This document shows positions 40,022 to 42,864 of a DNA stretch of 64,000 nt, in pieces. Origin of the DNA: Bacillota bacterium (lineage in GTDB: Bacteria; Bacillota; TC1); contig JAGXHY010000008.1 of the NCBI GenBank assembly GCA_024635925.1, positions 62,001 to 126,000 of the forward strand. Reading direction: 5' to 3'. Both the position numbers and the translations under genes were made by a program. Every line of letters begins with the position of its first letter. The stretch's first letter is position 1. The notes below the pieces were generated by a model. The model was not told the origin of the DNA, ran no database searches, and was given only the letters and a program-made list of their open reading frames with translations.

Positions 40022-40933
40022 TTGGCTACTAATTTCTTAAATATAGAAAAAATTTATAATGGATTAATTGAATATGATTATGACATAAGTGAACTGACTA
40101 CTTGGAAAATTGGAGGAAAAGTTAAATGTATTGTTTTTCCACAATATGAAAGTCAAATAGTTGTACTTATAGATTATTTAAAAAGAATGAACATTCCATA
40201 TTATATTATTGGTAAAGGTTCTAATATTTTATTTGGGAACAATGATTACAATGGTCTTATAATATATTTAGGGAAAAAATTTGATACCTATGAAATAACA
40301 AAAGATATAGATGGTAGCATTATTAATTGTTTAAGTGGTATGTCACTAATGAAAATTGGAAAAATTGCTAAAGAAAAATCTTTAACAGGATTTGAGTATT
40401 TGAGTCTTATCCCAGGTTCTTTAGGTGGCGCTATTATAACTAACGCCGAAGCACATAAAAAAGCTATCAGTGACTTAATTATTAGTGTTAAGGTACTCGA
40501 AAATGGCATGATAAAAGATTATACAAATGAAATGTGCATGTTTAAATATAGAACTTCCATTTTTGAAGGCAATAAGGATTTAGTTGTTCTATCTGCAATA
40601 TTAGCACTTGAAAATGGGAATAAGGAAGAAATAATAAATAAAATGTTGATAGCAAAGGATTATAGAATTAAAAAGCAACCAAAAAAACCTAGTGCTGGTA
40701 GTGTTTTCAAAAATCCTAATCTAGCTCCAGCTGGAAAACTTATTGATGACTTAGGTTTAAAAGGGGTATATAAAGGTGATGCTAAAATTTCTAATATACA
40801 TGGAAACTTTATTATTAATGAAGATAATGCTAAAAGCGAAGATGTCTTATATTTAATTAAGATAATTAGAGATAAAGTAGAAGAAAAATACAAAATTTCT
40901 CTTGATTTAGAAATTAAAATGTTTAATATATAG
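40022..40933 (+). CDS. murB: UDP-N-acetylenolpyruvoylglucosamine reductase
   Basis: FAD enzyme that reduces enolpyruvyl-UDP-GlcNAc to UDP-MurNAc with NADPH. TTWKIGGK, GKGSNILFG and LSLIPGSLGGAIITNAEAH are FAD-binding blocks; KKPSAGSVFKNP carries the active-site Ser of type II MurB, and a Glu-containing C-terminal segment follows. 303 residues, the short type IIb size. TTG start with AGGAG 9 bases upstream. It closes the mur part of the cluster; a promoter follows. Confidence 0.95.
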   Translation: MATNFLNIEKIYNGLIEYDYDISELTTWKIGGKVKCIVFPQYESQIVVLIDYLKRMNIPYYIIGKGSNILFGNNDYNGLIIYLGKKFDTYEITKDIDGSIINCLSGMSLMKIGKIAKEKSLTGFEYLSLIPGSLGGAIITNAEAHKKAISDLIISVKVLENGMIKDYTNEMCMFKYRTSIFEGNKDLVVLSAILALENGNKEEIINKMLIAKDYRIKKQPKKPSAGSVFKNPNLAPAGKLIDDLGLKGVYKGDAKISNIHGNFIINEDNAKSEDVLYLIKIIRDKVEEKYKISLDLEIKMFNI

Positions 40934-40935
40934 GT

Positions 40936-40964
40936 TTGCTTATTTAATTTATAATTGCTATAAT
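40936..40964 (+). promoter_or_regulatory. internal promoter for ftsQ-ftsZ
   Basis: TTGCTT at 40936-40941, 17-base spacer, TATAAT at 40959-40964 with extended TGC. It lies in the gap after murB and lets ftsQ-ftsZ be transcribed independently of the mur genes. It uses the same -35 (TTGCTT) and spacing as the rpsB promoter. Confidence 0.75.
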
Positions 40965-40996
40965 TACACTATATATAGTAATATGGGGGGATAGTA

Positions 40997-41776
40997 ATTA
41001 AAAGAAATAGACAAAATGAAGAAAATATAGAAAAAAAATCCAAAATAAAAGTTAAATTCAAAAAAATATTTCTTATGTTGATATTAATATCAACTTTAGG
41101 TGTTACATTTTATTTAGCTTTTTTTTCAAGTTTTTTTAACATTCAAATTGTAGAAATAAAAGGTGTTTACTCTTTAGAACCAAATGAAATTGAAGAAATT
41201 GCAAATATTAAATTAGGTTCAAATATATTTCTGCAAAATAACTTAGCTAAAGAAAAAAAGATGAAAGCTAAATTTTCAATTATTAATAATGTTAAAATTA
41301 AACAAGATCTACCTAATAAGTTAATTATTCAAATAACTGAAAAAAAACCTGAACTAGTTCTTTTATATCAACAAAAGTATGTATATATCGACTACAAAGG
41401 AGAAATTTTAAATATTAATAATAAACTTAATCAAAGTACTGCTCCTATTCTTACTGAACTTGACTTGCAAGACAATCTTGTACTTGGACAAGTTTTAGTA
41501 AAAAAGGATATACGATTAGCTTTAGATTTTGTTAATCAAATACCAGAGGACAAAAAATATCTTATCAATGAAATAACAATAGATGACTATGGTATATCGA
41601 TTTATCCAACTGGCAGTTATAAAGTTATGATGGGAGATAATATTAAAGTTCTCAAAAAAATACGAACTTTAGAGACATTGTTGAGAGACAGTGGACTCTT
41701 AGGAAATACAATAAACTATATAGACATTTCAAATCCTGATAAAATTATTTTAAAAACCAAGGAGGTTGTCTCGTGA
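40997..41776 (+). CDS. ftsQ: cell division protein FtsQ/DivIB, apparent ATT start
   Basis: Bitopic division protein: basic cytosolic tail, one membrane helix ([19 protein letters not shown]), then a POTRA-like domain ([17 protein letters not shown] and [13 protein letters not shown]) and the beta domain. The frame is open from a stop at 40979 with no ATG, GTG or TTG before an internal ATG at 41075, which would begin inside the membrane helix and has no ribosome binding site. GGGGGG at 40985-40990 is 6 bases from ATT 40997; starting there gives 259 residues with a normal basic tail ([19 protein letters not shown]). The last 4 bases overlap ftsZ. Confidence 0.85.
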
Positions 41777-42864
41777 TTGAATTTGAAGATGCAAATTTTA
41801 ACAAATCAGCAAGTATTAAGGTAATAGGCATTGGTGGAGGTGGAAACAATGCAGTCAATAGAATGATTGAAGCTGGTCTGCAAGGTGTAGACTTCATATC
41901 TATCAATACAGATGCTCAATCATTACAAAGCTCATTGGCAAACAAAAAAATACAAATTGGTAGTAAACTGACTAAAGGTCTTGGCGCAGGCGCTAATCCA
42001 GAAATAGGGAAAGCAGCTGCCGATGAAAGTAAAGAGGAATTATATAAATTATTACAAGGTACAGATATGATTTTTATTACTGCTGGTATGGGTGGTGGCA
42101 CAGGTACAGGCGCAGCTCCAGTTATTGCACAAATAGCTAGAGAAGTTGGAGCATTAACTATAGGAGTCGTTACTAAACCATTTTCTTTTGAAGGTAAAAA
42201 AAGAGAAGCATCTGCAAGAGATGGTATAGAAAAATTATCCCAATATGTTGACAGTTTGATTATTGTTCAAAATGATAAATTATTGGAATTGGCTGATAAA
42301 AGAACACCAATGTTACAAGCTTTTAAGATGGCTGATGATATTTTAAGACAAGGTGTACAAAGCATATCTGACTTAATTGTTATGCCAGCTCTTATAAATT
42401 TAGACTTTGCTGATGTTAGAGCTATAATGTCGGAAAATGGAGCAGCTCTAATGGGAATTGGTAGATCAACTGGTGAAAACAGAGCTCAAGAAGCGGCAAT
42501 AGCATCCATTTCAAGCGCATTACTAGATACTAGCATTGATGGAGCTAAAGGTGTACTGTTAAACATTACAGGTGGTAATGATTTAACACTATATGAAGTA
42601 AATGAAATTGCTACTATAGTTACTGAGGCCTGTGATGCTGAAGTAAATGTTATATTTGGAGCATCAATTGATCCATCAATAGAAGATGAAGTCTCTGTAA
42701 CAGTAATTGCAACTGGTTTTGAAGGTGAATTTTCAAGTATTAGAAGCAGACAGAAAAAAACTAAAAAAGAAGCAGAAGATACAAAGAATGCACAAGAATC
42801 AAGCAAAGAAGATGAAAAAGAAAACTTGGATATAGTTTTTACTATTCCTAAGTTTCTTGAATAA
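41773..42864 (+). CDS. ftsZ: cell division GTPase FtsZ
   Basis: Tubulin-like GTPase forming the Z ring. [13 protein letters not shown], the [13 protein letters not shown] tubulin signature and [11 protein letters not shown] are present. A charged linker (about residues 315-350) leads to a C-terminal peptide [11 protein letters not shown], the docking site for SepF, FtsA and other partners. 363 residues. GTG start with GGAGG upstream, overlapping ftsQ by 4 bases. The usual ftsA between ftsQ and ftsZ is absent; sepF lies about 2 kb downstream. Confidence 0.98.

Follow-up and report, generated by a model that had tools for sequence, protein, structure and literature searches.

The ftsQ (divIB) gene in the window, a 64,000-nucleotide stretch of a draft genome (G000:C20:62001-126000; 1.43 Mb in 34 contigs), very probably starts at an AUU codon at position 40997 that is served by a strong Shine-Dalgarno (SD) sequence, and this poor start would keep FtsQ low relative to the FtsZ made from the same message. 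ATT initiation itself is well supported, because the arrangement was found in six related genomes, because ftsQ loci outside this family had canonical starts, and because a gene survey singled out ftsQ and infC. The features of the locus are listed in Table 1.

Table 1. Positions of features in and around ftsQ, numbered from the first base of the window
Feature	Position	Strand	Remarks
murB, upstream neighbor of ftsQ	40022..40933	+	TTG start
Block TTTGCTTATTTAAYTTATAATTGCTATAAT	40935..40964	+	Putative promoter
In-frame TAA closing the ftsQ frame upstream	40979..40981	+	
Out-of-frame mini-ORF ATG GGG GGA TAG	40983..40994	+	Overlaps the SD; ends 2 bases before ATT
SD GGGGGG	40985..40990	+	Matched by a G-rich SD in the other family genomes (6/6)
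Putative ATT start codon, ftsQ/divIB	40997..40999	+	Spacing 6 from the G6 run
ftsQ/divIB, 259 codons plus TGA	40997..41776	+	Basic cytosolic tail, one membrane helix, POTRA, FtsQ_DivIB_C
Internal ATG	41075..41077	+	Edge of membrane helix; rejected as start
ftsZ SD AGGAGG	41760..41765	+	Within the 3' end of ftsQ; duplex -12.4 kcal/mol
ftsZ	41773..42864	+	GTG start, sharing bases with the ftsQ TGA (GTGA); Tubulin and FtsZ_C domains

The gene order at this site was murC-like, murB, ftsQ, ftsZ, and nrdR-like. The ftsQ frame contained POTRA_1 (E value of 1e-9) and FtsQ_DivIB_C (E value of 1e-4) domains, both over the curated Pfam cut-offs. An earlier note on this DNA had claimed that the frame lacked ATG, GTG, and TTG between the upstream stop and the ATG at 41075, that a GGGGGG ribosome binding site was located 6 bases before ATT 40997, and that a start at this ATT would produce a basic cytosolic tail. 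The first claim was borne out when we read the frame: the codons after the TAA were TAT GGG GGG ATA GTA ATT AAA AGA AAT, and the first in-frame canonical start was ATG 41075, the 31st codon after the stop. The binding site was also as described, and its duplex with the anti-SD sequence had a value of -9.3 kcal/mol at ATT 40997, compared to +1.6 at ATG 41075 and +1.7 at the out-of-frame ATG 40983. As for the tail, hydropathy and lysine/arginine counts placed 10 K/R residues before a single N-terminal helix, and this short basic tail and single helix were obtained only when the protein was read from the ATT. No RNA structure was predicted at the ftsQ start (0 kcal/mol).

Stretches of 31 codons without ATG, GTG, or TTG made up 33% of those inside 159 genes of the window's genome. 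Because such a stretch has a chance probability of 0.33 in gene interiors, the bare lack of canonical triplets was weak evidence, and the case depends on the presence and spacing of the SD and on the related genomes.

The relatives formed a family of uncultured bacteria represented by six genomes (G000 to G005, with G000 being the genome of the window) in a class of ten genomes. The codon aligned with ATT 40997 was ATT in G000, G001, and G004, ATC in G002 and G005, and ATA in G003. Thus, the question of whether relatives keep ATT or have ATG at this codon, which the earlier note had raised, was answered by ATT, ATC, or ATA in every genome and ATG in none of the six. A G-rich SD (GGGAGG instead of GGGGGG in G004) was found 6 nucleotides before this codon in all six genomes, with duplex values of -9.3 to -10.2 kcal/mol. 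The third base of the putative start codon was T, C, or A and in no case G, and the preceding codon varied freely (GTA, GGA, TTG, CCC). Since the FtsQ proteins of the five relatives were 38 to 71% identical to that of the window, third positions had time to change. Comparison across the family thus showed that the reading frame was kept, as were the SD, its distance to the putative start codon, and the membership of that codon in the AUU/AUC/AUA class, and this conservation did not amount to six independent events because the six genomes are related.

A start at the ATT, ATC, or ATA would provide each of the six proteins with a basic tail of 7 to 14 K/R residues before the helix. Changes at codon positions 1, 2, and 3 in the 26 codons from the ATT numbered 40, 31, and 67, respectively, when summed over the six pairwise comparisons of G000, G001, G004, and G002. 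Because the changes were mostly at third positions, this stretch looks translated. The same four of the six family genomes had no in-frame canonical start upstream of the membrane helix and contained no other plausible ftsQ start. In the case of G003, a TTG located 3 nucleotides after the G-run is a possible alternative start; among 53 genes with an SD core in G000, a spacing of 3 was found in 3 and a spacing of 6 in 8. In the case of G005, a TTG at codon 29, in the membrane helix, had an SD value of -6.2 and is also a possible alternative, and a start there would remove the tail. Taken as a whole, these comparisons supported the ATT start as it was read in the earlier note.

We also read 31 ftsQ loci outside the family, namely, 24 from 49 genomes with a match (all those in which a locus was available) and 7 of 13 from a contig search with alignment (which produced 17 ftsQ loci, 4 of them family genomes under public MAG names); two of the 31 loci, L017 and L018, had identical values and may count as one. 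These genes encode the same protein family, and 30 of the 31 had an ATG, GTG, or TTG start behind an SD of -5.8 or better. The sole exception was L091, with a best value of -3.6. In the other family of the class, which comprised four genomes, ATG was the best canonical start. In G042, a genome outside the class, the promoter type and SD layout were the same and a TTG was located in the place of the ATT (GGAGGG ATAAAG TTG), which suggests that a canonical ftsQ start was lost in the six-genome family. The best ftsQ start was a codon other than ATG in 12 of the 31 loci, and TTG or GTG starts often had very strong SDs of -13 to -15 kcal/mol (L012, L017, L021, L023, and L032).

The infC gene, the textbook example of a gene with an AUU or AUA start, served as a positive control. 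Its start was ATT in G000, ATA in G001, G002, G003, G004, and G006, ATC ATA in G005, and ATT ATT in G042. Two surveys sought conserved ATH codons that were backed by a strong SD and had no canonical codon to match them. In the first, which covered 158 genes of the window and contig C4 with their relatives, the best score went to an ATH codon in 31 genes and to a mixed column in 3; nearly all of these genes had an SD-backed canonical start close by. After inspection of the odd cases, only infC and ftsQ were left with an ATH codon whose SD scored about -9 or better in each of the genomes and that had no canonical competitor. The second survey compared 472 genes on G001 contigs C15 and C5 with stretches of G002 and G000, and its N-terminal mapping reached 89 codons above the local alignment. 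Here, 414 genes had a conserved canonical start with an SD of -4 or better, 55 had neither, and 3 were flagged at an SD of -8 (ftsQ and infC plus a false lead); relaxing the threshold to -7 also flagged an rsmD-like gene (16S methylase, PF03602). A clear ATH pattern was found only in ftsQ and infC among the 472 genes. Because the surveys covered about a third of a genome, other genes with ATH starts may exist. Two candidates, a glyQ-like gene (on C4) and a RimM-like gene, were rejected, as ATG codons were found two codons on and 18 codons upstream, respectively. No poor start was found in the gene for the divisome partner DivIC, which had a canonical TTG or ATG in five genomes (the truncated G004 locus was excluded).

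Several other accounts of the ftsQ start were weighed. Initiation might occur at the out-of-frame ATG 40983, with a -1 shift on G_GGG_GGA or polymerase slippage on the six Gs yielding a protein that begins MGGIVIKRN. The ATG GGG GGA TAG sequence does match the slippery pattern X XXY YYZ, and the G-run is preceded by ATG or TTG in five of the six family genomes, but the codon is TTG in G002, and these upstream codons lacked an SD (+0.8 to +3.6). In addition, the run in G004 (GGGAGG) is non-slippery and the frame is still kept, and G005 has no start at all at this place. We rejected programmed frameshifting or slippage because of the broken run in G004 and the missing start in G005, and we consider it improbable. 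The same triplets form a mini-ORF (M-G-G-stop) that could be translated, with ribosomes reinitiating at the AUU, or that could act as a decoy that lowers FtsQ; either version is compatible with an AUU start. Its stop codon is located 2 bases before the start codon, or touches it, in five of the six family genomes and in G042 (where the mini-ORF begins with TTG). On the other hand, the mini-ORF is absent in G005 and is not preceded by an SD. Because G-runs that follow a T are frequent in AT-rich DNA and the genomes share ancestry, its recurrence may be due to chance. A role for the mini-ORF seems unlikely, if somewhat less so than frameshifting.

Initiation at the internal Met 41075, with the upstream codons untranslated, would make use of the canonical codon that comes first in the frame in G000, G001, and G004. 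However, this ATG had no SD in any of the three genomes (+1.6, +0.7, and +1.6, respectively), its use would remove the whole cytosolic tail, and the codons upstream show third-position change. G002 lacks this Met altogether: ACT is in its place and no canonical triplet occurs until codon 53 after the ATC, so neither this Met nor another canonical start near the front is usable there. The internal Met was rejected owing to its missing SD and its absence in G002, and it is a highly improbable start. The window comes from a draft genome in 34 contigs, and an assembly error could have altered a true ATG or shortened the G-run by a base. This was refuted by the five other separately assembled genomes (38 to 71% protein identity), which share the layout, and the chance of such an error is negligible. 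GTA 40994 and ATA 40991 were also rejected as starts; their spacings were 3 and 0, and the GTA becomes GGA, TTG, and CCC in G002, G003, and G005.

The AUU start at 40997 would lie just downstream of a promoter of its own. The earlier note had called this putative promoter good; it consists of an extended -10 element (TGCTATAAT, 40956 to 40964) and, separated by a 17-nucleotide spacer, a poor -35-like TTGCTT (40936 to 40941), and a consensus promoter scanner did not include it in its list. The 30-base block was exact and occurred once per genome in G000, G001, G002, and G004, and it was absent from G003 and G005 at up to 3 mismatches. Every family genome, as well as G042, contained TGYTATAAT; the distance from its end to the G-run was 19 to 21 nucleotides within the family and 33 nucleotides in G042. 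A short leader is likely because of the exact block in four genomes and the position of TGYTATAAT 19 to 21 nucleotides before the SD. In the genomes with the exact block, FtsQ was 64 to 71% identical to that of the window. This exactness exceeds the needs of a plain promoter, and the block may hold an operator.

Downstream, the GTGA overlap between the ftsQ stop and the ftsZ start was found in five congeners (G000 to G004), which had AAGGAGG before the ftsZ GTG, and G005 had a short gap. We propose that the conserved, dedicated promoter gives rise to a short message carrying ftsQ and ftsZ, its leader being about 26 nucleotides long, and that ribosomes initiate FtsQ/DivIB synthesis at AUU 40997 because the strong, well-spaced, G-rich SD holds them there. 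The protein would begin with Met because the ordinary initiator tRNA reads the AUU. IF3 discriminates against AUU, AUC, and AUA starts, and we infer that this discrimination would lower the output from ftsQ. The suggestion of low or regulated FtsQ output in the earlier note is thus in keeping with what is known of such starts and with examples in the literature. The overlapping ftsZ, with its stronger SD and GTG start, would be made in excess, and the purpose of the poor start is probably to provide little FtsQ and plenty of FtsZ from the same message. FtsZ is far more abundant than FtsQ in Escherichia coli. There, FtsQ is described as a scarce protein, with about 50 to 250 copies per cell (PMC6134095). 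A broader idea is that IF3 directly tunes division in this family: FtsQ synthesis would be set, via the AUU/AUC/AUA start, by the balance of free IF3 and 30S subunits, as would expression of infC and possibly of the rsmD-like gene, and translation capacity would be coupled to divisome assembly with a growth-dependent FtsQ:FtsZ ratio. We regard this extension as tentative and rather doubtful.

Proven or conserved starts of the AUU class are few, to our knowledge. The infC gene has the same codon class (AUU/AUA/AUC), a strong SD, and IF3 discrimination, and the pattern was present in these genomes too; unlike ftsQ, for which we know of no feedback, infC is autoregulated and its product is IF3. 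The pcnB gene of E. coli is said to have an AUU start, as described by Binns and Masters in 2002; this start limits the amount of protein, as is proposed here for ftsQ, but the gene and lineage are different. In Streptomyces, a GTC start that is repressed by IF3 keeps SigR below RsrA (PMC5472188). The sigR-rsrA pair is similar to the arrangement proposed for ftsQ-ftsZ in having a poor start on the first gene, a second product that exceeds the first, a strong SD, and conservation in the genus. It differs in its codon, in being a sigma/anti-sigma pair in which rsrA also has its own promoter, and in that its IF3 effect was demonstrated by experiment, whereas that on ftsQ is predicted (PMC5472188). 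Closer in lineage, the Bacillota species Staphylococcus aureus has conserved noncanonical starts with extended SDs in cvfC1 (AUU) and ccpN (AUA), whose output in poor medium was about 10% of that from AUG; these are not division genes, and they were measured by Ribo-Ret and reporters (PMC13009471). Other papers report that IF3 excludes weak third-base pairs in vitro (PMC10158994), that an AUU start of lepA was inferred in two species (PMC1780047), and that ATT had at one time been listed as the start of four E. coli genes, infC being the only one with a strong SD (PMC1805508).

A literature search, whose scope did not extend to subscription papers and preprints, produced no report joining ftsQ, AUU, and start codon. 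Titles and abstract openings retrieved with divIB, start codon, and translation had nothing on a poor divIB start, and a search for IF3, noncanonical start codon, and cell division returned only the sigR paper. In a further search, ftsQ did not appear among the 20 matches listed of 347. Such starts are known in themselves, and ftsQ is new among the genes that have them (the infC, pcnB, and ccpN kind). All six genomes lacked ATG, GTG, and TTG at the start position and had a strong SD at the proper spacing. If IF3 controls the ftsQ start, an essential divisome gene with a conserved AUU-class start would be added to the kinds of genes that IF3 discriminates against. A poor start on the first gene would be a simple means of setting the FtsQ:FtsZ ratio within a single message, and one-base changes make it possible to test whether division is linked to translation initiation. 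Gene callers restricted to ATG, GTG, and TTG would cut off the FtsQ tail or miss the ftsQ start here.

Two further observations concern DNA within ftsQ and a gene outside the window. Positions 41077 to 41094 formed a perfect 18-base palindrome, GTTGATATTAATATCAAC, in the codons of the membrane helix; it was not kept in G001. A longer palindromic self-match (41031 to 41137) was dismissed as AT-rich coding sequence, and its center was not kept in G001. The rsmD-like gene (L161 on G000:C20, to the right of the window; also L158, L159, L160, L162, and L163) had no SD-backed canonical start in the six family genomes, which contained AGGAGTG TTT AWA ATW ATT AAA; the start was ATG in G006 and GTG in G042. 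In the family, its start would be either an AUH codon (two are consecutive, with ATH in 6/6) or the GTG that forms part of the SD. Just upstream was an extended -10 element, TGTTAAAAT (TGTTATAAT in G003), which is conserved and would put the transcript start near this GTG, making a leaderless GTG start possible.
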